Positions 9,079 through 45,739 of a stretch of DNA of 47,087 nt are shown one piece after another. The notes below the pieces were generated by a model. That model saw only the letters and a list, made by a program, of their open reading frames with translations, was not told where the DNA came from and searched no databases. Every line of letters begins with the position of its first letter. Position 1 is the first letter of the stretch. This stretch comes from a bacterium (GTDB lineage Bacteria; Cyanobacteriota; Vampirovibrionia; Gastranaerophilales; Gastranaerophilaceae). The translations under genes were made by a program, and so were the position numbers. The stretch lies in the NCBI GenBank assembly GCA_024408765.1, contig JAKSUR010000005.1:1-47087 (forward strand). Direction: 5' to 3'.

Positions 9079-9468
9079 TTATCCTCTGAGTTTTTCTGCT
9101 AAATTTTTCATTACCGATTCATAAGGTGCTCTTTGTGTTGTATAAATACCCTCATTATTATTTTTTAATACAGATGTATACGGAATATCCGTGTCTTCTG
9201 TGTTTTTAATTTTATTTTTATCATTTAATTTTGAAATAAGTGTTGTTCTGTCAATATCGCCTGCAATTAAGAATTTTTCTCCTTCCGCTTCTATTACATA
9301 GAGAGTTTTTCTCGTACTTAAAGAAAGCGTGTCTACAACTTTTAATCCGTTTCTTTTAGCGGATTTTTTAGTATTACAGCCGTTTACATGCTTAAATACG
9401 AACAATGCAAGCATTATTACGCCAATCATTGCAAGTACATATACGATAAAATTACTCAAATATCCCAT
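9079..9468 (-). CDS. fliO: FliO-like flagellar biosynthesis protein
   Basis: A 129-residue bitopic protein. One N-terminal transmembrane helix (about 6-27, IVYVLAMIGVIMLALFVF) is followed by a cytoplasmic domain with the FliO-type pattern of short beta strands: LKVVDTLSLSTRKTLYVIEA, then GEKFLIAGDIDRTTLISKL. FliO helps assemble the FliP ring of the export gate. Family identity rests on size, topology, this pattern and its place directly before fliP. FliO sequences diverge strongly, so the call is good but not certain. No injectisome counterpart of FliO exists, which supports a flagellum. Confidence 0.75.
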   Translation of the reverse strand: MGYLSNFIVYVLAMIGVIMLALFVFKHVNGCNTKKSAKRNGLKVVDTLSLSTRKTLYVIEAEGEKFLIAGDIDRTTLISKLNDKNKIKNTEDTDIPYTSVLKNNNEGIYTTQRAPYESVMKNLAEKLRG

Positions 9469-9543
9469 TTTTACCTCTTATTTCAACCAAAAATAATCTA
9501 AACTCAATGTTATTTTTAATTTTGATTAATACAAAGTCAAGAT

Positions 9544-10647: not shown

Positions 10648-10806
10648 GCTTTCTTATTTTGGGTATTTAGATTTATTAAACCTAATTTCCCATCTCCCTA
10701 CTATTGTCCATGCCTATCATACATATTTTATCCACATTTCACATCATCTGTTTGAATGAGAGATGATTCGTTAAACCACAATGCTTAATCAGATATTATA
10801 ATACTT

Positions 10807-12000: not shown

Positions 12001-12129
12001 CGAAAAACCCTCCAAGTCACACTGCTAAACCATAGTAGCATTTTGTTGAGTGGCATAACATCCATTAAATGGAGGAAATATAATGAATATAACAGAAGAT
12101 ATTATTGCAGATTGATTATATCCGCAAGA

Positions 12130-12597
12130 CTACTTAACATATTTTAAAAATTGTTGAACTTTTGTTTGCATCATTTCTTCTGTAATCAACCATTTCCCGT
12201 TTGGTTGTTTTTTTATAATTTGATAGGTTTTAAGCCAATATGATTCACCGGAAGGTTGTCTTTCGGCACTTATTTTATATCCGTCTTTCAATTGTAATAC
12301 GGTAATATTTCTGTATGCATTTTTGTATTTTCTCACCTTAGCAACCGCTGAGCTTAATCTCATTTGTTTTAAATATGTTGCTGTATCTGTGTATGCATTT
12401 GCAGTTGTTCCGTCAGGTTTAACCACCTGTCTTATTATAACTGCATTTGGTGCATACATGGTGCTTATTGAGTTTTCATAATTATTAGCAGCTTTGACAT
12501 AATTATTAAAGAAATCCAAAGCTTCTTGTCTGTTATCAGCATAAACCGTTAATGACACTAACGTAAATGTTAACAAAGTAAATAATATTTTTTTCAT
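12130..12597 (-). CDS. Secreted NTF2-like (SnoaL/DUF4440-type) protein
   Basis: A 155-residue protein with a Sec signal peptide (MKKILFTLLTFTLVSLTVYA) followed by an NTF2-like pattern. A first helix pair (RQEALDFFNNYVKAANNYEN) leads to the strand-loop SMYAPNAVIIRQVVKPDG. Antiparallel strands follow (YRNITVLQLKDGYKISAERQ, YWLKTYQIIKKQPNGKWLIT). Such domains are often ligand-binding or accessory and no catalytic residues can be assigned. It is the second gene after lysC, 9 bp downstream on the same strand, and therefore probably co-transcribed with it without obvious functional connection. Confidence 0.65.
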   Translation of the reverse strand: MKKILFTLLTFTLVSLTVYADNRQEALDFFNNYVKAANNYENSISTMYAPNAVIIRQVVKPDGTTANAYTDTATYLKQMRLSSAVAKVRKYKNAYRNITVLQLKDGYKISAERQPSGESYWLKTYQIIKKQPNGKWLITEEMMQTKVQQFLKYVK

Positions 12598-12606
12598 AAT
12601 AAACTC

Positions 12607-13872
12607 CTATACATTAGGCAAATCGCCTTTTACGTCTGCAATTTCGTCCGAATCCAGTCCAAACACACTGTGTAAAACAGAAACTGCTTCATCTGCTTTT
12701 TCTATATCAACAAGACAACTTATTTTAATATCACTTGTTGCAATCATTTTAATATTTATACCCAAGTTCGCAAGAGTTCTGAACATTTTTGCCGCAATCC
12801 CAGGACGACCTACCATTCCTGCGCCTACAATTGAAATTTTGGCTATTTTTTCATCAACAAAAACCCTGCTGTAGCCGAGTTCAAGTTTTACATTTCTCAA
12901 AACCTGCATTGCTTTGTCTAAATCAGCTTTTTCCATTGTAAAGGCTATGTCATTAGTGTTCAAATCTTTTCTTGCGTATGATTGAATAATCATATCAACA
13001 GAAATATTTTCTTTTGCGAGTCCGTCAAACAAAATAGCAGCAGTACCCGGATTATCCTGTACATCACACACAACTATTCTTATACGTTCTCTATCAAGCG
13101 CAACACCTGTTACCGGTTTATGAATTTCCATTTTGTCAACTCCTAATATTAATGTTCCTATATCATCAAGTTTAAATGTGCTTCTCACTCTTACAGGGGT
13201 ATTGTGTGTCATTGCCGTTTCAACCGCTCTCGGATGAAGAACATTAGCTCCGCCTGAAGCTAACTCCATCATTTCATCATAAGATATTTCCGCTAACTTA
13301 GAAGCACAAGGCACAATTCTCGGATCTGTAGTATAAACTCCTTCTACATCAGTATAAATATCACAGCGTTTTGCTTTCAATACACCTGCTAAAGCAACTG
13401 CCGAAGTGTCAGAACCGCCTCTTCCGAGTGTTGTGATTTCAAAATCATCGGTTATTCCTTGAAAACCTGCAATTACTACAACTTTTCCTTCTTCAAGATG
13501 TTTGGTTATTTTATCTGTTTTAATATCTAAAATTCGTGCTTTTGTATGCACTTTTTCGGTTATAATTCCTACTTGCATAGCATTCATACTAACAGCATCG
13601 CATCCTTGTTCTTGAAGTGCCATAGCTAAAAGTGCTATAGATACTCCCTCTCCTGTTGAAAGGAGCATGTCTAATTCTCTTGATGACGGTTTTGAAGTAA
13701 TTTCACCTGCAAGCTTCATTAAAATATCTGTTGTATGTCCCATTGCAGATACTACTACAACGACATTATGTCCTAAATTTTTCTCTCTTATGACTGCCTT
13801 AGCAACATTTTTAATCTTATCCGTATCAGCTACGGAAGTTCCTCCGAACTTTTGTACTATTATATCCTTCAT
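12607..13872 (-). CDS. lysC: Aspartate kinase
   Basis: Phosphorylates aspartate, the first step of lysine, threonine, methionine and diaminopimelate synthesis. The N-terminal KFGGTSVAD motif, the GRGGSDTSAVALAGVLKAKR segment and DVEGVYTTDPR belong to the kinase domain. Two C-terminal ACT repeats (from about residue 265) form the allosteric site. About 421 residues fits the monofunctional class. An ATG 12 bases upstream (13884) lacks a ribosome site. The ATG at 13872 follows a GGGA and gives the usual MxxIVQKFGG start, so it is preferred. The leader from the promoter at 13906 is short, with no room for a lysine riboswitch. Confidence 0.95.
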   Translation of the reverse strand: MKDIIVQKFGGTSVADTDKIKNVAKAVIREKNLGHNVVVVVSAMGHTTDILMKLAGEITSKPSSRELDMLLSTGEGVSIALLAMALQEQGCDAVSMNAMQVGIITEKVHTKARILDIKTDKITKHLEEGKVVVIAGFQGITDDFEITTLGRGGSDTSAVALAGVLKAKRCDIYTDVEGVYTTDPRIVPCASKLAEISYDEMMELASGGANVLHPRAVETAMTHNTPVRVRSTFKLDDIGTLILGVDKMEIHKPVTGVALDRERIRIVVCDVQDNPGTAAILFDGLAKENISVDMIIQSYARKDLNTNDIAFTMEKADLDKAMQVLRNVKLELGYSRVFVDEKIAKISIVGAGMVGRPGIAAKMFRTLANLGINIKMIATSDIKISCLVDIEKADEAVSVLHSVFGLDSDEIADVKGDLPNV

Positions 13873-13905
13873 TATTTTTCCCATAATAAAATAGAGTCAT
13901 TAACC

Positions 13906-13935
13906 ATTATATACAAAAAACGATAAATACAACAA
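13906..13935 (-). promoter_or_regulatory. Promoter of lysC
   Basis: On the minus strand: TTGTTG (plus 13930-13935), 18-bp spacer, TATAAT (plus 13906-13911). The predicted transcript starts about 27 bases before the lysC ATG. Confidence 0.5.
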
Positions 13936-13996
13936 AAAAGTTCATTTAATAAAATATATTAAAAATATAATACCTCCGCTTTAATTTATTACAAAC

Positions 13997-14026
13997 AAAA
14001 AAGGAGGGAAAAACTCGCCTCCTTTT
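13997..14026 (-). terminator. Rho-independent terminator after the YtxH/DUF948 cluster
   Basis: On the minus strand AAAAGGAGG (plus 14018-14026) pairs with CCTCCTTTT (plus 13999-14007), 9 bp with a 10-base loop, followed by more T. It ends the operon 15501-14051. Confidence 0.75.
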
Positions 14027-14050
14027 ATTGTAGTTATTTTCTAAACAATT

Positions 14051-14317
14051 CTATGATTCTGCACCATCTTTTTTGCCGAGCATATCAGAAAGTTTTGACA
14101 TAATTTCTTCGCTTTTTTCTTGTACATCCGAAACGATATCTTCGGCTTTTTTCTGGATATCTTTTACTCTTGCATCAGTTTTTTTTGAAATATCTGTTGC
14201 CATATCACCAAGCATCTCTCTTGTTTCTTCTCCTGATTTTGGTGCAAGAAGAACTCCTGCAACAGCACCAATTAATGCACCTACTGCAAATCCTGCTAAA
14301 AATCTTGTTACTGACAT
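14051..14317 (-). CDS. YtxH-domain protein (second copy)
   Basis: An 88-residue YtxH-family protein. A glycine/alanine-rich hydrophobic segment (FLAGFAVGALIGAVAGVLLAP, about 5-25) is followed by the family's APKSGEETR and a charged helical tail (about 40-80) rich in Lys, Glu and Asp. YtxH proteins are small envelope-associated proteins, often stress-linked, of unsettled function. AAAGGAGAAAAT precedes the ATG. It is the last of four genes, in two alternating pairs, that end at the terminator 13997-14026. A closely related copy lies at 14779-15093. Confidence 0.8.
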   Translation of the reverse strand: MSVTRFLAGFAVGALIGAVAGVLLAPKSGEETREMLGDMATDISKKTDARVKDIQKKAEDIVSDVQEKSEEIMSKLSDMLGKKDGAES

Positions 14318-14391
14318 AATATTTTCTCCTTTATTTTTAGTTTAAAATTAGTGATAAATTTTTTTATCCGCAAATTGTCTAATTCATAAGT

Positions 14392-14760
14392 CTATTTTTT
14401 CGAAAACATCTTTAAAGCTGTGCCCAATCCTGACCAAAAACCTCTGGAAGCTTTTGCCGTTAACTTTGAAAGTCCGCCTAGAAGCTTGAGAGGTGTTTTA
14501 GAAATAAAAGATTTAACTTTTTTAATATTTTCATCTGTTTTGATAACAATTCCGCTTACAATTTCAACGGATTTATTTATGTTTTTCAGAGTCGGTTCAA
14601 GCTCTGCTTTTGCCATTACAACAGTTTCATCAATATTTTTTGTTAATCTGGAAAAATCAAATAAAACTTTTGTAAGCATTAAACCCGCAATAAGAACTAT
14701 TGCGCCCGTTGTATATGCCAAAAATGTAAGACTATTGTTTAGTTGCACCGCAGATTCCAT
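14392..14760 (-). CDS. DUF948-like membrane protein (second copy)
   Basis: A 122-residue protein with one N-terminal transmembrane helix (about 11-33, LAYTTGAIVLIAGLMLTKVL). A long amphipathic helix follows (TKNIDETVVMAKAELEPTLKN... to about 85), then a basic C-terminus (LSKLTAKASRGFWSGLGTAL). The layout matches DUF948-type proteins, which often sit beside YtxH genes. It is the third gene of the four-gene group, 18 bp after the YtxH protein at 14779-15093 and 74 bp before the next YtxH gene. Biochemical role unknown; an envelope-associated partner of YtxH is the usual guess. Confidence 0.65.
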   Translation of the reverse strand: MESAVQLNNSLTFLAYTTGAIVLIAGLMLTKVLFDFSRLTKNIDETVVMAKAELEPTLKNINKSVEIVSGIVIKTDENIKKVKSFISKTPLKLLGGLSKLTAKASRGFWSGLGTALKMFSKK

Positions 14761-14778
14761 AAAATCCTCTTTCTGTTA

Positions 14779-15093
14779 TTAATTAAAATCGTAATCATTG
14801 ATATCTTCAAGTTCTTTTGCTCTTCTCATTTTTTTTGATTTAAGCATGTTTCCGAACTTTTTATATTGCTTTTCTAATTTGTATTTTAAAAGGTCAATTG
14901 ACTCTAATGCTTGTTTTTTAGCCTCTTGAACTTCCGGAGAATATTTTTCGGCTAAATCACAAACCGTATCTTTAACCTTGGCTCTCATTTCTTCACCCGG
15001 ACATGGTGCAAATAATACACCTGCGGTTATTCCGCCAAGTATACCTGCAATTAGTCCAAGTCCAAAGCCTATTGAAGTTTTTTCTTTACACAT
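14779..15093 (-). CDS. YtxH-domain protein (first copy)
   Basis: A 104-residue YtxH-family protein. SIGFGLGLIAGILGGITAGVLFAPCPGEEMR contains the hydrophobic glycine-rich helix (about 7-27) and the APxxGEExR motif. The long charged tail (KDTVCDLAEKYSPEVQEAKK onward) is helical, basic, and ends in an acidic DINDYDFN. It is distinguished from its paralogue at 14051-14317 by extra length and cysteines. Both copies follow a DUF948-like membrane protein, so the pair has been duplicated or recruited twice. Confidence 0.8.
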   Translation of the reverse strand: MCKEKTSIGFGLGLIAGILGGITAGVLFAPCPGEEMRAKVKDTVCDLAEKYSPEVQEAKKQALESIDLLKYKLEKQYKKFGNMLKSKKMRRAKELEDINDYDFN

Positions 15094-15129
15094 TGTTTTA
15101 TACCTCTTTTCTATATTGATTTGTTTGCA

Positions 15130-15501
15130 TTATATCACAAGTTGAAGTAGTGATAAACCTCTGCTTATACGTTTTATGAGTTTTGAACGTCTTAATTTTT
15201 TTATAAATTTTGAATTCATTTTCAATAAAATTAGTGCCAATAATATTTTATTTAGTTGATTTATGGCAAAATCTTCCTGTTTTTTCTTAAACTCTGCAAC
15301 CAAATCGTTTGCAAAATCAACGCACTGTGCTGAAATTTTCTTAACAATGTAACAAATATCTCTTAATGAAGGTTTTGCTGATATCAAAAGTTCATTAGCA
15401 TTAATAATTGCCTTATCCAAAGCATAAAGCTTTATAATAACTGAATAAGCAATTATTAATTCGGCTATAAAAACAATTGTTGTAAAAATTTTGTAAATCA
15501 T
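15130..15501 (-). CDS. DUF948-like membrane protein (first copy)
   Basis: A 123-residue protein with an N-terminal hydrophobic helix (about 5-25, IFTTIVFIAELIIAYSVIIK), an amphipathic helix (about 30-75) and a strongly basic stretch (KFIKKLRRSKLIKRISRG) ending in a short hydrophobic tail. By size, topology and position ahead of a YtxH gene it corresponds to the DUF948-like protein at 14392-14760, but sequence similarity is weak by eye. First gene of the four-gene minus operon, divergent from murT with an 82-bp intergenic region. Confidence 0.55.
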   Translation of the reverse strand: MIYKIFTTIVFIAELIIAYSVIIKLYALDKAIINANELLISAKPSLRDICYIVKKISAQCVDFANDLVAEFKKKQEDFAINQLNKILLALILLKMNSKFIKKLRRSKLIKRISRGLSLLQLVI

Positions 15502-15517
15502 ATTCAGTCCGTTATTT

Positions 15518-15546
15518 TTGTATTATGATTAATTATATTCTATTAT
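15518..15546 (+). promoter_or_regulatory. Candidate promoter of murT-pdxJ
   Basis: TTGTAT (15518-15523), 17-bp spacer, TATTAT (15541-15546), with a start expected near 15553, about 30 bases before the murT ATG. The -10 lies inside an inverted repeat (15536-15562). Confidence 0.4.
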
Positions 15547-15562
15547 TTAAAAAAATAGAATA
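15536..15562. promoter_or_regulatory. Inverted repeat in the divergent murT region
   Basis: TATTCTATT (15536-15544) and AATAGAATA (15554-15562) are perfect 9-bp arms around a 9-base centre. It overlaps the proposed murT -10 and lies between the divergent murT and DUF948-like genes, so it could be an operator. Its AT-rich composition means chance cannot be excluded. Confidence 0.3.
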
Positions 15563-15583
15563 CGATTATGGGACTATTTTAAA

Positions 15584-16906
15584 ATGATTAAACGAAGATT
15601 TGGGTTTTATTTAGCATTAATATTTGCAAAACTTGCTTATATGTTTTTAAAAATAACGAAATTATCATCAGGAACATCAATTATAGGGTTTTTGGTATTA
15701 AAAATCTGTCCTGACTTTCTTAAATTTGCCAACGATTACATTTCAAAAAAGATTAATGTAACCGGTACAAACGGAAAAACAACGACCTCGGGATTAATCA
15801 ACCATCTTATTAAAGAATCAGATAAAAGCGTTATTAATAATTCTATGGGTGCGAATATGCTGAATGGAGTTGTTAATTCTGTTGCGTTGGAAATTAATCC
15901 GCTTAAAAAAACAGAATATTCAGTAATTGAATTGGATGAAGCTAATGTAGGTCTTGTATACAAAAAGTTTGAGGCTGATTATATTCTTGTTACGAACTTA
16001 TTTAAAGATCAATTAGACAGATACGGTGAACTTGCAACAACAAAAAAGTTTATTCAAGACGGAATAAATTTAAAACCTGATATCAATGTGCTTTTAAACG
16101 CTGACGATCCCCTTGTGGCAAGCATCGAAGCCAAAAACAGAATATATTACGGCATAAGCGAAGTTATTTACAAAAACGAAACTGAGCATACCGAAACAAA
16201 GACAGGCGAAATTTTTAATTGTAACTGCGGAAAACCGCTTTGTTATACAAAGAAATTTTATGCTCAACAAGGACATTATTATTGTGAATGCGGTTATAAA
16301 CGTCCTAATGTAAAATATGAAGCAAAAGTTACGCTTTACAAAGATTTTTCCGTAATTACTCTTAACAATACGGAATATAAAGTTCCGCTTATAGGTCTTT
16401 TTAACGCATATAATGCAATAGGTGCAATCTCTTTGGCTCTTGAATTAGGGATTAAAGATATTGAAAAAAATCTTTTATCTTTTAAAGTAGCGTTTGGAAG
16501 AAGTGAAGTTAAATCACTCTATGGTCATAAAACACTTATTCAGCTTATAAAAAATCCGATTGGGGCAAATGAAGTTTTGAAAACGGTTGACGTAAATTCT
16601 AACATACTTATTGCAATTAATGACAATTATGCCGACGGAAGGGATGTTTCATGGCTTTGGGACACTGATTTTTCAATACTTCAAAAAGCTACGCAGGAGA
16701 TTGTTGTATCGGGTATAAGAGCATCGGATATGGCACTCAGACTAAAATATGCAGGTGTTGATATCAATAAAATTAAGGTTATTAAAGATATCAAAACTGC
16801 TGTTGATTATATTGGTAAAACAGCCGAAAATAATATTACAATATTGCCGTCTTATACCGTTTTGTTAAAAATGAACAAGTTAAAGGAGTTAAGAAAATGT
16901 TGTTAG
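15584..16906 (+). CDS. murT: Lipid II isoglutaminyl synthase subunit MurT
   Basis: A Mur-ligase-family protein of the MurT branch, which with the glutaminase GatD amidates the D-Glu of lipid II. The GTNGKTTT ATP-binding loop is at about 61-68 and the NNSMGANML segment at about 86-93. A zinc-ribbon insertion (Cys213, 215, 220, 234, 236) is diagnostic of MurT and absent from MurC-F. The DUF1727 C-terminal domain follows (about 310-440), with DVSWLWDTDF. Length 440 fits. A hydrophobic N-terminus (about 7-25) is present. No gatD follows; instead pdxJ overlaps the end by 10 bp. A weak ribosome site precedes the ATG. Confidence 0.85.
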   Translation: MIKRRFGFYLALIFAKLAYMFLKITKLSSGTSIIGFLVLKICPDFLKFANDYISKKINVTGTNGKTTTSGLINHLIKESDKSVINNSMGANMLNGVVNSVALEINPLKKTEYSVIELDEANVGLVYKKFEADYILVTNLFKDQLDRYGELATTKKFIQDGINLKPDINVLLNADDPLVASIEAKNRIYYGISEVIYKNETEHTETKTGEIFNCNCGKPLCYTKKFYAQQGHYYCECGYKRPNVKYEAKVTLYKDFSVITLNNTEYKVPLIGLFNAYNAIGAISLALELGIKDIEKNLLSFKVAFGRSEVKSLYGHKTLIQLIKNPIGANEVLKTVDVNSNILIAINDNYADGRDVSWLWDTDFSILQKATQEIVVSGIRASDMALRLKYAGVDINKIKVIKDIKTAVDYIGKTAENNITILPSYTVLLKMNKLKELRKCC

Positions 16907-17610
16907 GAGTAAATATAGACCATGTTGCAACATTAAGAAATGCAAGAGGCGGAATCGATCCTGATATAATTGCGGCAGCAAGGGTTTGTAAAGTTTGTGG
17001 CGTGGAAACAATTACAACTCATCTTCGAGAGGACAGAAGGCATATAAAAGATGCGGATGCGGAGGCAATAAGAATGCTTCCGAGAGTAAGATTAAACCTT
17101 GAAATGGCAATGACCGATGAAATGCAGGAAATTGCTTTAAGGCTTCGACCGCACGCTGTTTGTCTTGTACCTGAAAAAAGACAAGAACTTACAACAGAAG
17201 GCGGACTGGATGTTGAAGGTCAGCTTGACAGAGCAATTAAATTCGTAAAACCGCTTATTGAAAAGAATATTGAAGTAAGTTTTTTTATAGATCCTGATAT
17301 TCACCAAATTTCAGCGGTTTCTAAAACCGGAGCACCGTTTATTGAACTGCATACAGGCAAATATTCGGAAGCATTCGGGACGGAAGAAGAAGAAACGGCT
17401 TTTGAAAATTTAAAAGGAGCGGCAATATTTGCTCAAAACTTCGGATTAAAGGTTAATGCAGGTCACGGACTTAATTATCAAAACGTAAAAAGAATGCACG
17501 AAATTCCAAATCTGGTAGAATTAAATATTGGTCATTCAATAATTGCACGGTCAATTTTTGTAGGCTTGGAGCAAGCAGTAAAAGAAATGAAAACACTTTG
17601 TGAAGGTTAA
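16897..17610 (+). CDS. pdxJ: Pyridoxine 5'-phosphate synthase
   Basis: Condenses 3-amino-2-oxopropyl phosphate with deoxyxylulose 5-phosphate in DXP-dependent vitamin B6 synthesis. The 237-residue TIM-barrel protein starts MLLGVNIDHVATLRNARGG, the family hallmark. It has THLREDRRHI, RLNLEMAMT, LVPEKRQELTTEGGLDV, ELHTGKYSEA, NAGHGLNYQN and ELNIGHSIIARSIF in the expected order. AAAGGAG lies upstream within the murT 3' end, and the genes overlap by 10 bp, so translation is likely coupled to murT. Confidence 0.97.
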   Translation: MLLGVNIDHVATLRNARGGIDPDIIAAARVCKVCGVETITTHLREDRRHIKDADAEAIRMLPRVRLNLEMAMTDEMQEIALRLRPHAVCLVPEKRQELTTEGGLDVEGQLDRAIKFVKPLIEKNIEVSFFIDPDIHQISAVSKTGAPFIELHTGKYSEAFGTEEEETAFENLKGAAIFAQNFGLKVNAGHGLNYQNVKRMHEIPNLVELNIGHSIIARSIFVGLEQAVKEMKTLCEG

Positions 17611-36315: not shown

Positions 36316-37059
36316 ATGAAAAAGAAATTATTAGTAGCTTTGAGTTTAATGATGGCATTTGCGGTTAGCGGTTCTGCTATTGCCGGAACAAAAGTTAATT
36401 CGGACTTGGCTGCTGCAATAAAATTTTATAAACAAGGGAATTATGTACAATGCTATAACAAGCTTGAAGCCTCATTGAAAAAAGACCCTTCAAATGCTCT
36501 TGCTTATTATTATAAAGGAATGACAGCGGCACAGATAGGGAAAAAAGAAGAAGCAATTGAAAGTTATCAAAAAACATTGGACTTGTCGTCAAAAAACAGT
36601 AATCTTAGTCAGTATGCGGAAAAAGGGAAAAGATGCTTAGAAACCCCTGATGCTTGTCATGAAGTAAAGCAAGAAGATGTAATAGACAATTTTATAAGAA
36701 ACAGGCAGGCAGACGGTTTTTCTGATGAAGCCAGAGGAATGTACGAAAAATTAAAAATAGAACAAATGATGAGAGATATGAACAGACAAGATGACATTAA
36801 TCCTCAAAAATTTAAAGAATATAAAGATTTTTCAAGCATGAATACTCCATCAGATGTACCTACAAATGAAGAGATTGTTGCAGCGGTTAAAACTCTTCAA
36901 AAAGCAGGCATGATGAATTTTGGGAATAATGTTTATTCCGATTTGTCACTTATGACAGGTGAAACAAATAACTCGATGGTGAATTTAATAAATTCCGGTA
37001 AAATGGATCCGCAACTTATCCAAGCAATGTTAACAAACAATATGTCACTTGGTTTTTAG
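36316..37059 (+). CDS. Secreted TPR-repeat protein upstream of fliW
   Basis: The start at ATG 36316 follows AAGAAGGA; earlier in-frame ATGs at 36292 and 36310 are less well spaced. The 247-residue product has a Sec signal peptide (MKKKLLVALSLMMAFAVSGS to AIAG). TPR-like helices follow (LAAAIKFYKQGNYVQCYNKL, NALAYYYKGMTAAQIGKKEE). A polar C-terminal half contains a Met/Asn-rich segment. Cysteines are present in the middle. Function unknown; its place ahead of fliW and csrA, and the shared promoter at 36210, suggest a role in motility or envelope. The 3' end is 16 bp before fliW. Confidence 0.75.
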   Translation: MKKKLLVALSLMMAFAVSGSAIAGTKVNSDLAAAIKFYKQGNYVQCYNKLEASLKKDPSNALAYYYKGMTAAQIGKKEEAIESYQKTLDLSSKNSNLSQYAEKGKRCLETPDACHEVKQEDVIDNFIRNRQADGFSDEARGMYEKLKIEQMMRDMNRQDDINPQKFKEYKDFSSMNTPSDVPTNEEIVAAVKTLQKAGMMNFGNNVYSDLSLMTGETNNSMVNLINSGKMDPQLIQAMLTNNMSLGF

Positions 37060-37075
37060 AAAGTAATGATAGAAT

Positions 37076-37507
37076 ATGATAATCAACACAGTTAAATTTG
37101 GAGAAATAGAAGTCGAAGAGGAGAGAGTTTTTGATTTCAAACTCCCGATAATAGGTTTTGGCGAACTCAGGAAATTTGTTATTCTTGATACAAGTAAAGA
37201 TAGTTTTTTTAAGTGGCTTCAATCTACGGAAGATCCTTCGCTTGCGTTTCCGATAATTTCTGTATTTAGTATGGATGTTGAATATTCAATTGATTTAGCG
37301 GATGAAGTTGTTGAAAAGTTAGATATTAAAAATGTAGAAAGTTTGCTTGTAATGAACATAGCCTCAATACCTCAAGATAATCCGCATGGTACCACGATAA
37401 ATCTGCTTGCACCTCTTATATTTAATCTTGAAAAACAAGTCGCAGGTCAGATTATACTTTCTGGTTCCGGTTATGATATAAGTTTCCCATTATTTAAAAA
37501 AAATTAG
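37076..37507 (+). CDS. fliW: Flagellar assembly factor FliW
   Basis: FliW binds flagellin and CsrA, so that free flagellin titrates FliW away and lets CsrA repress flagellin translation. The 143-residue protein has the family pattern: an N-terminal GEIEVEEERVFDFKLPIIGF, FFKWLQSTEDPSLAFPIISV (about 43-62) and GTTINLLAPLIFNLEKQVAGQIIL near the C-terminus. It is directly followed by csrA (12 bp), the classic partner arrangement. The ATG lacks a strong ribosome site. Flagellin itself is not in the window. Confidence 0.93.
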   Translation: MIINTVKFGEIEVEEERVFDFKLPIIGFGELRKFVILDTSKDSFFKWLQSTEDPSLAFPIISVFSMDVEYSIDLADEVVEKLDIKNVESLLVMNIASIPQDNPHGTTINLLAPLIFNLEKQVAGQIILSGSGYDISFPLFKKN

Positions 37508-37519
37508 TTAAGGATAATA

Positions 37520-37855
37520 ATGTTAGTAATTTCACGAAAAAACGGTCAAAAAATAATGATAAATGACAATATTGTCATAACGATTGTTGAATCCAAAAAC
37601 GGTCAATGCAAAATTGCTATTGAAGCGGATAAAGATGTAAAAATTTATCGTGAAGAAATTTATTATCAAGTTAAACTTGCCAATTTGGTCGGTAAAAATT
37701 CAAATATAAATTCAGTCAATTCGGTTTCTGATTTGTTAAAAGATGACAGTATAAAAATTAATAATAAAGTTGAACAAACAGCAGAAGCTTCAGAAATCTC
37801 TGTTGATGAAGTTAAAAAGCCTAAGTTTATAATTAAAAAACAAAATAATCAATAA
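37520..37855 (+). CDS. csrA: Carbon storage regulator CsrA with long C-terminal tail
   Basis: CsrA binds GGA sites in mRNA leaders and blocks translation. The first 55 residues are classic: MLVISRKNGQKIMINDNIVI, then AIEADKDVKIYREEIYYQVK, with the RNA-binding Arg at about 44. The usual protein is 60-75 residues; here a Ser/Asn/Lys-rich tail brings it to 111. The tail is polar, likely disordered, and ends in a basic patch (KKPKFIIKKQNNQ). AAGGATAATA precedes the ATG. It is paired with fliW, so flagellin control is the expected role. Confidence 0.9.
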   Translation: MLVISRKNGQKIMINDNIVITIVESKNGQCKIAIEADKDVKIYREEIYYQVKLANLVGKNSNINSVNSVSDLLKDDSIKINNKVEQTAEASEISVDEVKKPKFIIKKQNNQ

Positions 37856-37872
37856 ATCTTTTAGGATTGCAG

Positions 37873-38430
37873 ATGTTTTTTTTTGATACAAATGATAAAG
37901 AAAAAAAATTCAGACCAAGAAGTGTCGAACACGCATACTTAGCAATATTAAATGATGATTTGAAAACAGCTCAAGCTGTATTTGAATCTATTGATTCACC
38001 AAGAGCTCATTGGGGGAAAGCGTTTGTTGATATTCTATCAGGTTATATCGAAAAATATCCAACATATTTTGAAATAAGAAATTTTTTGGAAATTGATTTG
38101 GATTTTCTTATTAAAAATGAAAAATTTACTTATGTAGAACAATTTTTAGGTTCATTAGAATTGTTATCAAAAATTAATCAGGAAGTGTATAAGTATGTTG
38201 CAAGGGTTATGTTAGAAAATAAACTTTTTAATGTTGCGATAGAATATATGGAAAAATCAAAGAATTACTTTTACAATGATCCTGAACTTCATTTTATGCT
38301 CGCAAAATATTATATAAGTAAAAATGAACTTGACGAATCGAAATATTATCTTGATGAATGTCTTAAAATTATTCCCGATTATTTTCCTGCATTAAGATTA
38401 AAAGAATTTATACAAAACGATTTTGTATAA
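37873..38430 (+). CDS. TPR-like protein following csrA
   Basis: The start is the ATG at 37873, 6 bases after AGGA; an in-frame TTG two codons upstream is not needed. The 185-residue product has no signal peptide. Helical repeats (YLAILNDDLKTAQAVFESID, ELHFMLAKYYISKNELDESK, YYLDECLKIIPDYFPALRLK) indicate a soluble TPR fold in the C-terminal half. A cytoplasmic partner of the flagellar or CsrA system is possible from context only. The gene ends 26 bp before the leaderless gene at 38457. Confidence 0.7.
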   Translation: MFFFDTNDKEKKFRPRSVEHAYLAILNDDLKTAQAVFESIDSPRAHWGKAFVDILSGYIEKYPTYFEIRNFLEIDLDFLIKNEKFTYVEQFLGSLELLSKINQEVYKYVARVMLENKLFNVAIEYMEKSKNYFYNDPELHFMLAKYYISKNELDESKYYLDECLKIIPDYFPALRLKEFIQNDFV

Positions 38431-38450
38431 ATAAAAATATTTAGTATAAT
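38423..38450 (+). promoter_or_regulatory. Promoter placing the 38457 ATG at the transcript start
   Basis: TTGTAT (38423-38428), 16-bp spacer, perfect TATAAT (38445-38450). Only six bases separate it from the ATG at 38457, so the mRNA should begin at or very near the start codon. No Shine-Dalgarno is present. Confidence 0.6.
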
Positions 38451-38456
38451 ATTTTT

Positions 38457-39140
38457 ATGAACGAAAAAAATTCTGATATATTTCAATCATCAAGCAATCA
38501 AGCTTCAACAGAAAAAAACAATAACTTTTTTCTGAGTAACGGCACTAATTCTATAAGCGTTGATAAACATTTCGTTAATACGCAACACCTGAATGATTAT
38601 GATTATAATATTATGCAAAAGGGAGCATATAAAGATATCCCTGACAATGCACTTAAGATAGAATACCAAATATCTGAAACCGAAAAAAACATTACCGACA
38701 TTGAAACACAAATTGACTTGGCAAGGGAAATGGCTGATTATGATAAATATCAGGAACTTCAAGGAAAACTTATTATCTTAAAAGAAAATTATAAAAATCT
38801 TTTATCATCATACAATGAACAAGCTCTGTCAGCCAAGATATCAACTTCTGTTTTTAATGTTTATGACAAAATTATAGGTTCAAATTTTTTAAAATTAAAA
38901 AATTTATCCGGTAATATATATGAAAAACTTTTAGCTTTACTTCCGGATAAATTCGGCTCAATCGTTAAAATCAAAAAATCATTATCAGCGCTGGAAAATA
39001 TAAACAAAAGTGTAGACAACCTCGTTTCTATGGATATTCCGTATGGTGAAAGCATAGATAAATATAAAAAATTATCAAAATATATAATTAAAGCAAATTC
39101 TATTCAATCAGACATTTCAAAATATATAAAAAGACATTAG
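38457..39140 (+). CDS. Unknown coiled-coil protein, apparently leaderless
   Basis: I do not recognise this 227-residue protein. It opens with an Asn/Ser-rich disordered stretch (about 1-40). A likely coiled coil follows (ALKIEYQISETEKNITDIET through about 115), then a helical C-terminal half rich in Lys (LSALENINKSVDNLVSMDIP). No signal peptide or membrane helix. The ATG has no ribosome site and sits 6 bp after a perfect -10 box. It overlaps the convergent cheA stop by 4 bp and sits between the fliW-csrA unit and the chemosensory genes, so it could be a motility or chemosensory accessory. Confidence 0.6.
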   Translation: MNEKNSDIFQSSSNQASTEKNNNFFLSNGTNSISVDKHFVNTQHLNDYDYNIMQKGAYKDIPDNALKIEYQISETEKNITDIETQIDLAREMADYDKYQELQGKLIILKENYKNLLSSYNEQALSAKISTSVFNVYDKIIGSNFLKLKNLSGNIYEKLLALLPDKFGSIVKIKKSLSALENINKSVDNLVSMDIPYGESIDKYKKLSKYIIKANSIQSDISKYIKRH

Positions 39141-42100
39141 CCTTTTGATTCGTTAAGGGCCGTTTTGACCAGATTAATAAAACTGTTTTGCTCAAATGAA
39201 TCTTTTTGTACATAATATTCAATATCATGTTGTTTTAGCTGTGCAATAACATTTTCCTTTGCATGAGAACTCATTACTATAACAGGAATTTTTTCATAAT
39301 TTTCATAATTTCTCAATGCTTCTATAAATTGAAAACCGTTAATATCCGGCATGTCAATATCAGTCATAATTAAATCGTAAGAAGTTGTATTAAGCTTTGA
39401 TAATGCATCTTGTGCGTTAGGTGATATGTCCGTTAAATATCCAAAATTGTTCATAATATTTTTTATCATACTTCTTGTCGTTAAAGAATCATCAACAACC
39501 AGTATATTTTTGTTTAAACTGTCTTTGCTTGTTAATAAGGTTAACGGTTGAGATGTGCTGATAGATTTATTAAAATCATAATGCAAAATATCTTGCATAT
39601 TTATAATCAAGCATAATTCACCTGATGCGAGGTTTGTAATCCCTGATATATATTTAACTTTATAAAGAGGTGGTGACAATTTCTTTTGTAAAATATCCTG
39701 ATCACCAAGCAGTTTATCTACAACAAGTCCAATTGACTTATCATCTGATTCTATAATAAGCACTATTTCCTTATCATTTCTTGGTGTTGGCGGTAATCCT
39801 AAAATTTCTGCGAGGTAATATAACGGCAAAATTCTATCATTAAACAAAATTGAACGATTACCGTTATTTGTCTTAATTTCATTCTGTTTTTTTAAAATAA
39901 ATGTCGTTATCGTCTGTATAGGAATTGCAAATGTTTGTTCAGAAATTTTAACCAAAAATACTCTCAAAGTTGCAAGAGTAACCGGAATTTCTATATGTAT
40001 ACAACTTCCTTTTCCAAACTCTGAAACAACCTTAACTTTTCCGTTTAGTTGAGAAATCTTTGTTTTAACAACATCTAAACCAATCCCTCTCCCTGAAATA
40101 CTTGTTATTGAATCTCCGGTTGTAAATCCGGGCCAAAAAATTATATTCATAATTGCATCATCAGACATTGCTTCAATGTCCTCTTGCGTTAAAAATCCTC
40201 TTGATACGGCACGTTCTTTAATTTTTCCCAGATTAAAACCTTGTCCGTCATCAACAACTTCTATGATAACATTGTTTTCATCTTGTTTTGCTGATAGCAA
40301 GATTTTGCCTACGGGATTTTTCCCTGCAAGTATTCTGTCCTCCTTCGATTCAATGCCGTGGTCAATTGCATTTCTTAGTATGTGCATTAATGGAGTTTTT
40401 ATTTCTTCGATAATTTTTTTATCAGCACAAGTATCATTCCCTTGAATCTCAAAGTCAATATCTTTTCCTTTTTCTGTTGCAATATCACGCACCATTCTCG
40501 TAAAAGAATTAAACACGGTTGATATAGGCAATACCCTTATATTTTTCACCATAGATTCCATTTCATCTATGATTAAACGCATTTTTGCATCATCCTCTTT
40601 TGATGAACGATAAAGAGCACTTAAATCATATATTGTACCGGAAAGATTTTGAGTTATATCGGAAAGGAGTGTAAAAACTTGTTTTATAAAGGATGTGGTA
40701 TATTGACTTCCGTTTTGTGATTGCATGTATTTACGGTTATAGTATCTTAAATAATTGAATGTTTTAAGTAAATCTTTTTGACAATTTTCATTTGCATTTT
40801 TTATTGCATCAATTTTATCAAGATTTTTTTCGGCTTTAATTTTTGTAATAATTAATTCACCCAGCATATTTACAAGTAAATCGAGTTTTTGCGCATTGAC
40901 ATGAAGCGTTTTAATTTCGGTTGTTGTTCTGCTTGTCATTGACGATTGAGCCGAAAGATTTTTAATTTCACTTATACCTGTATCTTTTTTAAAATTCAAT
41001 TCAAGCAATTGTTTCATAATTTCTAATTGTTGAATTATCAAATCACCATCAATACCTTCATTTGGCGAAGCACAATATTCTAATGCACTCCTTAATGTTT
41101 GAATCATTTGCTCTTCAAGTTGCACAGAATTATCTTTTATAAAATCAAGAATTTCAATTAGTAAATTAACAATTTCTAATATACTTGTATCACTGATTTT
41201 TGTCTTAAAAGCCTCAATATCGTCTTTTATTTCTTGTGCATATACACTACTGCCTTGTAACATTGGAATTTTACCCGATACATCAAAAAGTGAAATGCCT
41301 GTTTCTTCCTCTTCAATACAGCATGTATTGAATTTTGAAGCGGCAGAACCCAGACAATCTCTTAATTCCAAAATTTCACTTATTGTAAATATATTGGTTG
41401 CATTCATAACAAAATCTAATTTTGCCATAATATCTTCCAATGAAGTTTTTATTTCATAAAGATTGCTGTCTTTAATAAGGTTATATATTTTCTGCACTTC
41501 TTCTTTTAATATAACTGTTTCTTGTGATTCTTCCTCGGGAACGATACTGTCAATAAGGTTGAAGCAATCATTAAAAACCGCATTAATTTCTTCTTTGTGT
41601 TGTTGATATTCTTGAATTTTTTCTTTCGAAGATGATTGGCTATCATCGGATGCTATAGTTTGTTCCAAGCCTGCTATTTCTGCCAAATTGCCCAATCCCA
41701 CCAAATCAGGTGAGAAAATATCATTTTCTGACTGACCTGAATCATTTTGTAAATCAACATCACGCATAAATTCAAGCATGGAAACAGTTGGCTTAAACCT
41801 TTCGTCAACAATTTCCCGCATATTTTTTACAGAAACTTTTAAATATTCTGCAACAAGTTCAATGGATTTTGTTATAACATTTATTTTAGCGGAATCTAAA
41901 ACGATATCCCTCGTTTTTACAATATCAAAAATATCTTCAATTTTGTGAACAATATCTTGAATATTATTATAACCGACCATCCTGACTGCACCTTTTAAAC
42001 TGTGCATGTCACGATATAACGTAGCAGAAAGATTCTTGTCATCGGCATTTTTTTCAAGGTTTATAAGACAGTCAAATATTCGCTCAATAATATCTTCCGT

Positions 42101-42160
42101 TTCTGTTTGGAAGATATTCATTAACTCCTCGTCGTTTTGTTTGTTATTTTTATCGTCCAA
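39137..42160 (-). CDS. cheA: Hybrid CheA histidine kinase with C-terminal receiver
   Basis: A 1007-residue chemosensory kinase. The N-terminal Hpt domain has LYRDMHSLKGAVRMVG with the phosphorylated His at 53. A long helical linker (about 120-420) has no second clear Hpt. The dimerisation domain (about 425-560) holds AQKLDLLVNMLGELIITK. The HATPase has HILRNAIDHGIE, VVDDGQGF and SGRGIGLDVV. A CheW-like domain and a REC domain (about 885-1005; NILVVDDSLTTRSM, DLIMTDIDMPDING) follow. Such REC-tailed CheAs are typical of Chp or Frz-like systems. Start: TTG at 42160, 9 bases after GGAAGG inside the MCP gene end; an alternative ATG lies at 42121. Confidence 0.9.
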   Translation of the reverse strand: MDDKNNKQNDEELMNIFQTETEDIIERIFDCLINLEKNADDKNLSATLYRDMHSLKGAVRMVGYNNIQDIVHKIEDIFDIVKTRDIVLDSAKINVITKSIELVAEYLKVSVKNMREIVDERFKPTVSMLEFMRDVDLQNDSGQSENDIFSPDLVGLGNLAEIAGLEQTIASDDSQSSSKEKIQEYQQHKEEINAVFNDCFNLIDSIVPEEESQETVILKEEVQKIYNLIKDSNLYEIKTSLEDIMAKLDFVMNATNIFTISEILELRDCLGSAASKFNTCCIEEEETGISLFDVSGKIPMLQGSSVYAQEIKDDIEAFKTKISDTSILEIVNLLIEILDFIKDNSVQLEEQMIQTLRSALEYCASPNEGIDGDLIIQQLEIMKQLLELNFKKDTGISEIKNLSAQSSMTSRTTTEIKTLHVNAQKLDLLVNMLGELIITKIKAEKNLDKIDAIKNANENCQKDLLKTFNYLRYYNRKYMQSQNGSQYTTSFIKQVFTLLSDITQNLSGTIYDLSALYRSSKEDDAKMRLIIDEMESMVKNIRVLPISTVFNSFTRMVRDIATEKGKDIDFEIQGNDTCADKKIIEEIKTPLMHILRNAIDHGIESKEDRILAGKNPVGKILLSAKQDENNVIIEVVDDGQGFNLGKIKERAVSRGFLTQEDIEAMSDDAIMNIIFWPGFTTGDSITSISGRGIGLDVVKTKISQLNGKVKVVSEFGKGSCIHIEIPVTLATLRVFLVKISEQTFAIPIQTITTFILKKQNEIKTNNGNRSILFNDRILPLYYLAEILGLPPTPRNDKEIVLIIESDDKSIGLVVDKLLGDQDILQKKLSPPLYKVKYISGITNLASGELCLIINMQDILHYDFNKSISTSQPLTLLTSKDSLNKNILVVDDSLTTRSMIKNIMNNFGYLTDISPNAQDALSKLNTTSYDLIMTDIDMPDINGFQFIEALRNYENYEKIPVIVMSSHAKENVIAQLKQHDIEYYVQKDSFEQNSFINLVKTALNESKG

Positions 42161-42165
42161 TTAAT

Positions 42166-43212
42166 CTAACCTTCCGCAACTGAATTTTTAATTTCCTCCG
42201 ATAATACATTTAATTTATCCAGTTTCTCCGAGCCGGATGTCATTAAATTTGTTAAGTCTAATGTGATTTGCTGATTTTCTTCTTCGATAATATTTAATTT
42301 TTTGATAATTTCGTCTTGTTTTTCCGCATTTTGATTTAAAAGTTCTAATGACTCAAATACACCATTAATTTGATTCAAAAGAGATTCTGAACTTAAGGAC
42401 AAAGCTTCTATATCTCTGACAACACTTTCAATTTCCTTAGAACCTTCTTCGGTAGCCATAACTGTTGAGTTGGTAGTATATTGTATATTGCCTGTTAATG
42501 CAGAAATCTTTGTTATTGCTTGTTTTGATTCATCTGCAAGTTTTCTTATTTCACCGGCAACAACTGCAAACCCTTTTCCGTGTTCACCCGCTCTTGCCGC
42601 TTCAACTGCCGCATTCAGGGCAAGCATATTCGTTTGCTCAGCTATATCATCAACAATACCTATTGAATTACCTATTTGTTGCGTATGTTCAGACAACTCC
42701 AAAATTAATTCGGCAATCATTTGTACTTTCTGTCTTAATACAAGCATTTTTTCAGAATTTGACTTTACAGCTTCATGCTCGGTTCTGGAGAATGCAATCG
42801 ATTGATTAACCTGCTTTTCTGTATTTTTTGAAGTTCCTATTGCATCTGTCGTTATTGATTTTAATTTATCAATCAGTTCGGAAACATTTTTGCTGTTATT
42901 GCTTAATTTTTCAAATATTTTTTTCTGTGACATAAAAATTTTTGTTACGTTATCAGTCGCCAATGACATGGTTTCAGATTGGTTTGATAAAGATTTTTTA
43001 ATAGATTTTGTTATCCAATTTTTTGTTATTATGTGTATCGGTATAAATATCAATAGCATAATTACGACATAAACAATGCCTTCGTATACAGTTAATTCAT
43101 GTCTTATAAAAATTGATGCAAGCATACCCATTAATATTACAAATACTGCAATATCGATACCACATTTGATACCAAATTTTTGCACCAACCCAAAATTCAC
43201 TTTTTCAAGCAC
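42166..43212 (-). CDS. Methyl-accepting chemotaxis protein without large sensor domain
   Basis: A 348-residue chemoreceptor. Two close hydrophobic segments (about 17-35 and 44-62) are joined by a short loop, so no sizeable periplasmic sensor exists. The rest is the cytoplasmic signalling helix pair with the hairpin [30 protein letters not shown] (about 192-221). No HAMP domain is evident. Start: GTG at 43212 after AGGAGGG. It is the first gene of a two-gene operon with cheA, whose ribosome site lies in its 3' end. The input probably comes through a partner protein or the membrane, as for PilJ-like receptors; that is inference. Confidence 0.88.
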
Positions 43213-43296
43213 AACTTCCCTCCTATAGCTTTTTTTTTACATTTATTATATAATCATTTTATACTAAAATTTATAAAATTGGAATATCTTGATATT

Positions 43297-44751
43297 ATGG
43301 CACATAAAATTTTACTGGTAGAAGATACTGAAACAGAGCTTAAATTTTTAAAAACAAGTCTTGAAGAGAACGGTTTTGAAGTTGTAACAGCAATCAACGG
43401 CTCAGATGCTTATAAAAAATTATATGTTTGTACACCTGACATTATTGTATCAGATATAATTATGCCGGTGATTGACGGGTATCAATTATGCAGAATGATA
43501 AAAAATGATGAAGAAACAAAAAAAATCCCAATTATTTTATTAACTGCTATGGATAAAAAAATTGATGCCTTTTGGGGTAAAAAATCCGGAGCACAACTTT
43601 TTCTTACAAAGTCTATAGACATAAGAGAATTAATATTACATATTGAGGCTACTATAAGAAGATATCCGGTTAAAGATGAATATAAAGAAAATTTAAAAAT
43701 TCAATCGGAATCAACAAGTACGGCGCAGTTAAAATTGAATAATATTTTAAATGATTTGCTGATGAAAAGCACATTTTCCAATGAGTTTAGAAATTTAAGT
43801 GATTTTTTAAATTATGAAAGAATTTTGGTAGAAAAATTATTTTCACTTTTAAGTTCTTTTGTAGAATATAATGTTGCCGGAATATACTTTTCATCACCGG
43901 ATGATTTTGCAGAAAATATTTTGTACATTGATACACTTGGGAAAAATTATTCAAAAAGTCTTTTAAATGATGTAAGCAGAGATTTCTTTAAAAGTATGGA
44001 AGAACGAAAAGCAATAAAAAATTCGAAATTTGAAGTTATAAGAATGCTTTTAGGCAAAGAAACAGATTATCAAATATCCGACTTCGCTTCTAAAATTATT
44101 ATTCCGTTAATTTTTGACAAAAAGTTAATAGGGGGAATTTGTTTTTATACCGCCCAAGATATCAATTATACATCATTTCGCTATTTCGATATTATGATAA
44201 GCGAATTACTTGCAATCTTTAAAATGAAGTATCAATATACGGAAAAAGAATTTATGTCTGTTCTGGATGGTTTAACAGGATTATATAACCGCAGACAATT
44301 TGAAATCAGTATTGAACAGGAATTTAATCGTACAAAACGTCATCCTGCGGATTTTTCACTCGCAATTCTTGATATTGATTTCTTTAAAAAAGTAAATGAC
44401 ACTTATGGACATCAATATGGAGATTATGTTCTTAAAACAGTGGCAGATTTAATGAAACAGTCTTTTCGCAAAACCGATTTGCTATACAGATATGGCGGAG
44501 AAGAAATGGTAATCATTATGCCGGAAACAAATGCTGAAAATGCGCTTTTGCCCGTACAAAGATTAAGAAAAACAGTTGAAGAATATGATTTTGAATACAA
44601 CAATGTTAAATCTAAAGTTACCGTAAGTGTCGGATTATCAATGAATTATCAAGATTTTACAAATGCATCTGATATTTTAAAATCTGCCGATAATGCTTTG
44701 TATAAAGCAAAAGAGAGTGGCAGAAACAGGGTTATAAGGCATGAACAATAA
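43297..44751 (+). CDS. REC-GAF-GGDEF response regulator diguanylate cyclase
   Basis: Start is ATG 43297 (MAHKILLVEDTETELKFLKT); the frame runs open further upstream but into the divergent MCP gene. The 484-residue protein has a receiver domain (Asp10, phosphoacceptor Asp53 in VSDIIMPVID). A GAF-like middle (about 160-310) follows, then a C-terminal GGDEF domain with DGLTGLYNRRQF, DIDFFKKVND and the active-site GGEEM at 400-404. An inhibitory RxxD (RKTD, 391-394) lies exactly five residues earlier. It should make c-di-GMP under phosphorylation control. It lies divergent from the MCP-cheA operon and overlaps the CheW gene by 11 bp. Confidence 0.88.
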   Translation: MAHKILLVEDTETELKFLKTSLEENGFEVVTAINGSDAYKKLYVCTPDIIVSDIIMPVIDGYQLCRMIKNDEETKKIPIILLTAMDKKIDAFWGKKSGAQLFLTKSIDIRELILHIEATIRRYPVKDEYKENLKIQSESTSTAQLKLNNILNDLLMKSTFSNEFRNLSDFLNYERILVEKLFSLLSSFVEYNVAGIYFSSPDDFAENILYIDTLGKNYSKSLLNDVSRDFFKSMEERKAIKNSKFEVIRMLLGKETDYQISDFASKIIIPLIFDKKLIGGICFYTAQDINYTSFRYFDIMISELLAIFKMKYQYTEKEFMSVLDGLTGLYNRRQFEISIEQEFNRTKRHPADFSLAILDIDFFKKVNDTYGHQYGDYVLKTVADLMKQSFRKTDLLYRYGGEEMVIIMPETNAENALLPVQRLRKTVEEYDFEYNNVKSKVTVSVGLSMNYQDFTNASDILKSADNALYKAKESGRNRVIRHEQ

Positions 44752-45739
44752 TTATATAGAACAAAAAAAGAATACCCATCTTTATTTTGAAATAGACGGA
44801 AGCAAATATGCGATTAATACAAATAACATATTGGAAATTATGAAGCTTCCTGCGCTTGATTATCCGTCAAAACTTCCGAATAATGTAGTAGGTTTGTTAA
44901 AATACAACAACTTTGTTATAAATGTAATCGATATAAGATTTTACCTTAATATTGAAGCTACACCGTATACTACAAGCAACGATTTGCTTATTGTAAAAAC
45001 AGATGAAATAATTTTTGGTATTATTACAGATAAAATAATAGGAATATTACCGTTTGATTCATCTTTTGTTGATCAAATTCCGTTTGCAGATGATAATATG
45101 ATTGTTGAATCTTTGTACAAACATGATGAAGAAACAATATTTATTGTAAACATATATTCAATTGAGATATTACTCAAAGGTCATCATACCAATTTCCCCG
45201 AAATAGACATACCGTCTTTGATGCCAAAAGATGCTAAGTCAAAAGCATTAATGCTTAAAAGAACACACGATATGCTTGAAAAAGCATCCGTAAGATTGGC
45301 AGCAAGCGGAGGACAAGTTAAAAATAAATACATTTCATTAAATTTAGGCAATGATTTTTATTGTATATCGCTGGATTATGTAAAAGAAATTTTAAATGAT
45401 ACCGCAATAACAAAAGTTCCCGGAGTGTCTGATTTTATATCGGGAATAATGAATCTTAGGGGAGATTATGTTACAGTAATTGATATAAAGAAATTCTTGG
45501 GTTTAACAGAAACCCAAAATCAAATAAAAAAACCTATAATTATAATACAATACAATGAGTTAACATTGGCTTTTCTTGTTGATAAAATAAATGAAATATT
45601 TGAATTTGAAGAATTTACAGAAGGAAACGGTTCCGATAGTTATTATTTATGTGAATTTATAAATGATACTGTTTTATATACGGTTTTGAATATTGATAAA
45701 ATAGCCTCCGACAAACGACTTGTTGTAACTGAGATGTAG
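44741..45739 (+). CDS. Double CheW-domain protein
   Basis: A 332-residue protein with two CheW-like domains joined by a linker. Domain 1 (about 10-150): THLYFEIDGSKYAINTNNIL, VVGLLKYNNFVINVIDIRFY. Domain 2 (about 190-325): NKYISLNLGNDFYCISLDYV, DFISGIMNLRGDYVTVIDIK. CheW links chemoreceptors to CheA. Two copies in one chain resemble the adaptor proteins of some non-flagellar pathways and could crosslink arrays. It overlaps the GGDEF gene by 11 bp, so translation is coupled. No CheR/B/Y follows. Confidence 0.85.
   Translation: MNNNYIEQKKNTHLYFEIDGSKYAINTNNILEIMKLPALDYPSKLPNNVVGLLKYNNFVINVIDIRFYLNIEATPYTTSNDLLIVKTDEIIFGIITDKIIGILPFDSSFVDQIPFADDNMIVESLYKHDEETIFIVNIYSIEILLKGHHTNFPEIDIPSLMPKDAKSKALMLKRTHDMLEKASVRLAASGGQVKNKYISLNLGNDFYCISLDYVKEILNDTAITKVPGVSDFISGIMNLRGDYVTVIDIKKFLGLTETQNQIKKPIIIIQYNELTLAFLVDKINEIFEFEEFTEGNGSDSYYLCEFINDTVLYTVLNIDKIASDKRLVVTEM

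Follow-up and report, generated by a model that had tools for sequence, protein, structure and literature searches.

A reduced, Wsp-like chemosensory module with a probable cyclic di-GMP output in Gastranaerophilales

Background

The Wsp system provides the precedent for a chemosensory kinase, a CheA with a C-terminal receiver (REC) domain, that drives a REC-GGDEF enzyme (PMC8552884), and cluster 2 of Halomonas is described as a Wsp-like system (PMC5907407). CheR has been named a core enzyme of all chemosensory families (PMC3447774). For gut Melainabacteria, published accounts report flagella but no chemotaxis genes (PMC3787301), and chemotaxis genes are mentioned in general terms for the group (PMC5877343); in the literature on chemosensory or cyclic di-GMP (c-di-GMP) systems of Gastranaerophilales and Vampirovibrionia we found nothing on the module reported here. 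This module consists of genes for a CheA-REC kinase, a methyl-accepting chemotaxis protein (MCP), a REC-GGDEF diguanylate cyclase and a CheW-CheW adaptor, and lies at 39137-45739 of the stretch of 47,087 nucleotides analysed here (the window), which is contig C59 of a genome of 1.58 Mb (113 contigs, 94.6% complete). We think it fairly probable that the module is a reduced, Wsp-like chemosensory switch with c-di-GMP output rather than a device for flagellar steering.

The order-wide survey covers 241 genomes of Gastranaerophilales, gut bacteria related to cyanobacteria but not photosynthetic, whose families are labelled f1-f7, the window's family being f1; 38 CheA loci across the order were read, and synteny was counted in 70 genomes of near relatives. 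The relatives with names are mainly Gastranaerophilales metagenome-assembled genomes of rumen and gut origin. Domains were called with Pfam, and AlphaFold models of CheA and the cyclase were compared with solved structures.

Results and Discussion

Four genes in two diverging units

At 36316-45739 Pfam finds FliW, CsrA, two TPR proteins, MCPsignal, CheA, REC plus GGDEF and CheW-CheW, exactly the genes listed by a sequence-only reading of this DNA. The module proper is made of two diverging two-gene units, with the FliW-CsrA side separate. On the reverse strand is the hybrid kinase (39137..42160, 1007 aa, TTG start), which is supported by Pfam (Hpt, H-kinase_dim, HATPase, CheW and REC), by motif conservation in 38 CheAs and by the fold of its P1 domain. 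Its domains are P1/Hpt with His53, two extra helical bundles, P3, P4, the CheW-like P5 and a C-terminal receiver (39197..39505, reverse strand), the acceptor Asp of which is intact according to Pfam, a receiver search and conservation. The AlphaFold model gives P1 as a four-helix domain near solved CheA P1 structures; the two additional bundles have no recognised phospho-site, and no histidine outside P1 is conserved in a 37-sequence alignment. The MCP-like receptor (42166..43212, reverse strand, 348 aa, GTG start) is built of two adjacent transmembrane helices and then a long cytoplasmic hairpin, and neither a periplasmic domain nor a methylation consensus was found in its sequence. The sequence-only reading thus saw correctly that a sensor domain is lacking, while its label "PilJ-like" does not fit such a receptor.

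Between the two units lies a divergent intergenic region of 84 bp (43213..43296), a putative shared promoter, which is strongly conserved in the genus; in an alignment of 62 relatives its core, TATTCCAATTTT and TATAAAATNATTATATAATAAA, is nearly invariant. The forward unit opens with the cyclase (43297..44751, 484 aa), identified by Pfam, motifs and AlphaFold, with acceptor Asp53, the active site GGEEM instead of GGEEF, and the inhibitory RxxD intact (R391, D394). Among relatives the fifth active-site residue is L, I, V or M and GGEE is invariant, so that GGEEM is the genus-level form of GGEE[LIVM]. The middle domain, read earlier as GAF, is called here only GAF-like, because Pfam gives no GAF match at E 0.1 and a GAF-like succession of alpha and beta elements between REC and GGDEF is seen in the model alone; the intact inhibitory site of the same reading is borne out. 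The nearest solved multi-domain relatives of the model include PleD and WspR. The double adaptor CheW-CheW (44741..45739, forward strand, 332 aa) follows with an 11-bp overlap with the cyclase gene. Its two domains and that of CheA are the only CheW domains of the genome, and there is no other CheA, CheW or MCP in the genome outside this module.

Conservation across the order

CheA is detected in 121 of the 241 genomes, and 120 of them are counted as carrying the module kinase, because G032 has a flagellar-type CheA alone. The MCP stands next to CheA in 37 of 38 loci and CheW-CheW is in place in 33, while a cyclase-like gene, always divergent and beside the MCP, is present in 25 loci across several families. 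In 62 of the 70 near relatives the four genes keep identical order and strands, which together with the 25 cyclases beside the MCP shows that the gene order is non-random. All 38 kinases have His53. Of the 25 cyclases aligned, 24 preserve the acceptor Asp, and the same number holds for GGEE and for RxxD. Judged from the CheA genes in about half of the genomes and the four-gene order in several families, the module is old.

Kinship of the kinase

In a kinase-core tree of 69 rows and 458 columns, the Gastranaerophilales module kinases form one clade (100/100), and their sister group is a cyanobacterial CheA-REC family (100/98). The genes of many of these cyanobacterial CheAs lie with those for CheR, CheW-CheW, MCP and REC-CheB, and several clusters also include a regulator with a PatA-like N-terminal part and a receiver at its end. 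A flagellar identity of the kinase is rejected by the topology, which separates the module CheA from the order's flagellar-type kinases, found in sister families. Approximately unbiased (AU) tests, in which the groups were picked after viewing the first tree and the p-values are therefore indicative, reject a grouping with the Wsp-like kinases of Halomonas and Novosphingobium together (p-AU 2e-49), with the Novosphingobium type (p-AU 2.6e-5), and with ChpA and the cyanobacterial Tfp kinases (p-AU 4.3e-4); the Wsp-like references are the Halomonas and Novosphingobium kinases and do not include WspE of P. aeruginosa.

Missing adaptation enzymes

For CheB no match is found genome-wide, and the best match for CheR has an E value of only 0.75. 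The absence of both, proposed earlier from the window, therefore extends to the genome, and neither an F-class placement of CheA nor a full cheYRB set elsewhere is found. True CheR (E < 1e-49) is confined to genomes of f2, f3 and f4 and to G138, nearly the same set as the genomes with a second, flagellar-type CheA (G026 is the one exception), and nearly all genomes of the window's family lack a match of this grade. Missing data as the cause are rejected for the order, as near-complete members of the family are also without true CheR. On the receptor side, a match to the methylation consensus occurs in only one of the module MCPs read. The MCPs of the cyanobacterial relatives possess some 140 aa of periplasmic domain, and most of them show one consensus methylation site. 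The joint loss of CheR, CheB and the sensor domain is the unusual feature of the module.

Two further observations concern these enzymes. Many genomes of the order encode methyltransferase-like proteins with a weak CheR-domain match (E 1e-7 to 1e-31), for example at G018:C3:108857-109429; some of these genomes have no CheA at all, and for this reason we do not take the proteins for MCP methyltransferases. At locus L099 of G026 (9103-17599), the module CheA-MCP has as immediate neighbours CheR, CheB, a FliY-like protein and a FliM that carries the CheY box, and this arrangement, seen in one fragmented genome, is possibly a rearrangement, a misassembly or an ancestral link.

The cyclase as candidate output

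The neighbouring cyclase is the best candidate for the output, since its synteny and catalytic motifs are conserved, the CheY-binding box of FliM is lost, and modules are present in flagellum-less genomes. The box (LSQ.[ED]ID) is found in 17 of 17 sampled genomes of f2-f6 and is lacking in 24 of 24 from f1 and f7 (21 of 21 for f1 alone), including the window's genome, where the N-terminus of FliM reads MTNSNELMNKLTNTEEEFEDS. Most of the box-bearing f2-f6 genomes also hold a second, flagellar-type CheA; the two losses are coupled imperfectly, because in three f6 genomes and one f5 genome the box is present although no flagellar-type CheA was detected, and G138 has a flagellar-type che cluster, yet no box. 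Complete modules with intact GGEE are present in the FliG/FliM-negative genomes G152, G226 and G153 (g22 and g27). These findings, together with the lack of a CheY in the module, agree with the earlier suggestion of an output other than flagellar bias, and make control of a second messenger, c-di-GMP, probable. Within the window, another C-ring protein of SctQ/FliN type (9544-10647, 367 aa) is encoded in a fliO-fliP-fliQ-fliR set, and the true FliM is on contig C26.

That CheY is absent, as the sequence-only reading also stated, holds for the window, which has no receiver-only gene, and only in part for the genome. Among 17 receiver matches, mostly DNA-binding regulators or larger proteins, there is one clear stand-alone receiver, on contig C25, flanked by a hybrid histidine kinase and an MshEN/T2SSE-like ATPase, and a second candidate with a weak match (125 aa). 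This kinase-receiver-ATPase set (L115, G000:C25, 1449-10354) is directly upstream of fliF-fliG-fliH-fliI, a possible link of pilus and flagellum.

A controller of type IV pili in the manner of Pil-Chp is one rival reading: CheA would pass phosphate to the stand-alone receiver whose gene lies with that of a PilB/MshE-like ATPase, and the cyclase would be a side branch. The receiver gene does adjoin a gene for an ATPase of type II secretion or type IV pilus type, but it overlaps the gene of its cognate histidine kinase. The genome search proposed earlier finds two PilT-family matches beside flagellar genes in the window's genome; across the order pilT-family genes accompany the module in 120 of 120 genomes, and the two flagellated genomes without PilT (G176 and G238) are also without the module. 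However, PilT is nearly universal in the order (236 of 241), so the association says little (Fisher p 0.06). Moreover, the kinase is placed apart from ChpA and Tfp kinases, it bears a single histidine-bearing Hpt, PilG and PilH are lacking in the module and the receptor is not of PilJ type, so that the resemblance to Pil-Chp once proposed for this locus is not upheld and a pilus controller is unlikely.

Slightly less likely still is a decaying flagellar chemotaxis system, in which CheA would still reach the motor by way of an unlinked CheY while the cyclase tunes flagellar speed. It would accord with the strong co-occurrence of the module with FliG/FliM, with fliF-fliG-fliH-fliI lying 3-4 kb downstream of CheA in G103, and with the stand-alone receiver just upstream of fliF-fliG in the window's genome. 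Against these stand the loss of the FliM box throughout the sampled members of the family, the absence of CheR and CheB, the flagellum-less genera that retain the module, and the fact that the order's real flagellar chemotaxis uses a separate CheA with CheY and CheR.

A protein-protein output, in which CheA would phosphorylate its own receiver only and signal for instance with a stand-alone HD protein resembling Ppx/GppA domain III, is likewise improbable, for although several genera have no cyclase at the locus but do keep CheA, MCP, CheW-CheW and the HD gene, the window's genus has the cyclase conserved and intact with no HD gene next to the module, and g20, without the cyclase at the locus, has lost the CheA receiver as well in several members. 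In most families the HD gene itself abuts the 3' end of cheA or overlaps it (for example L091, 8217-8807, with equivalents in about 19 loci).

Several points weigh against the c-di-GMP switch that we favour. The cyclase gene is not at the locus in g14, g20, g23, g24 and g31, where relocated copies were not searched, and its GGDEF is degenerate in the g17/g18 loci; therefore the output is not universal. The module tracks flagellar genes, which occur in 92 of the 120 genomes with the module and in 4 of the 121 without it (a count uncorrected for phylogeny), and this co-occurrence could point to a role in the flagellum or to common descent followed by loss. The cyclase, one of seven GGDEF matches in the genome, could also be driven by another kinase, as the genome has several histidine kinases. 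In two of the loci with a degenerate GGDEF (L066, 6277-7665; L068, 5766-7241) the cyclase gene retains its receiver, a possible switch to a non-enzymatic output.

Proposed mechanism

We infer phosphotransfer, enzyme activity, stimulus and downstream effect as follows. The membrane-anchored MCP, without a periplasmic sensor and bound to CheA by the double CheW, would set the autophosphorylation of CheA; the phosphate on His53 of CheA would be handed to the neighbouring cyclase at Asp53 and turn on c-di-GMP synthesis, which may be limited through feedback inhibition by the product at the RxxD site. The C-terminal REC of CheA may serve as an internal phosphate sink or timer, and a phosphate-draining role is described for other CheA-REC proteins (PMC10782961). 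Because there is no CheR or CheB and there are no methylation sites, methylation-based adaptation would be absent, and therefore the module would report a level and not a gradient, perhaps of a membrane, cytoplasmic or surface-related state. Whether the cell moves, by flagellum or type IV pili, or settles may be decided by the c-di-GMP produced.

Comparison with described systems

The wiring is like that of Wsp (WspA-F, WspR; Halomonas cluster 2) in the CheA with C-terminal REC, the one MCP, the lack of CheY in the module, the two CheW domains (fused here, separate as WspB and WspD in Wsp), and the REC-GGDEF output with RxxD and GGEE encoded alongside the kinase (WspR). A CheA-REC driving such an enzyme is therefore not the unusual wiring that it had been taken for. 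The module differs in lacking CheR (WspC) and CheB (WspF), in its receptor without periplasmic sensor domain or methylation sites, in the GAF-like domain of the cyclase, in the divergent gene order, and in a CheA outside the clade of the Halomonas and Novosphingobium references; with kinship, CheR/CheB and the receptor all at variance, membership in Wsp is rejected. Compared with WspR and PleD, the cyclase is likewise a REC-controlled GGDEF protein with active and inhibitory sites, but has one REC plus the GAF-like domain and, in nearly all relatives, M, L, I or V and not F as the fifth signature residue.

The cyanobacterial clusters (L196, L197, L205, L206, L208, L210) share the sister CheA, a CheW-CheW of about 350 aa and a very similar MCP hairpin, whereas most of them keep CheR, CheB, the periplasmic domain and the methylation consensus, and their output where seen is the PatA-like regulator, not a cyclase. 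With Pil-Chp (PilG/H/I/J/ChpA) and cyanobacterial Tfp systems, the module has in common only the REC-tailed CheA and the type IV pili in the genome. From F-class chemotaxis it differs in having no cheY, cheR or cheB beside the kinase and no CheY-responsive FliM. Chemotaxis in Helicobacter pylori is alike in having CheA-REC and no CheR or CheB, but it has CheY and CheV and steers a flagellum.

Neighbouring genes

The fliW-csrA pair (37076..37855, forward strand) and the TPR genes are found on the far side of CheA, with transcription running towards it. Their placement beside the module, pointed out earlier, is real in the window and is a local arrangement: fliW-csrA is adjacent in 5 of 70 near relatives and in none of the loci L060-L109, and so is ruled out as part of the module. 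On the other side, a gene truncated by the contig end (45775..47087, forward strand) is a doubtful member; it adjoins the module in the window's genus only, and its product, reminiscent of FimV in layout, has a signal peptide, a periplasmic part, one transmembrane helix and a long, acidic stretch in the cytoplasm.

Conclusions

It is possible, if somewhat short of probable, that the array derives from a cyanobacterial-type CheW-CheW/MCP/CheA system which lost CheR, CheB and the sensor domain and recruited a cyclase independently of Wsp, that the motor of the same lineage lost its CheY control, and that much of the order thereby moved its sole chemosensory input from steering to c-di-GMP. Wsp-type wiring would then have an apparently independent second origin. 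The picture of flagella without chemotaxis genes (PMC3787301) is corrected in that many gut Melainabacteria retain a CheA, though not one built for steering. Methylation adaptation, held to be core even in chemosensory systems outside motility, has been dispensed with by a module found in about half of this large gut-associated order, and the module offers a minimal four-gene system for asking what an unadapted array reports.

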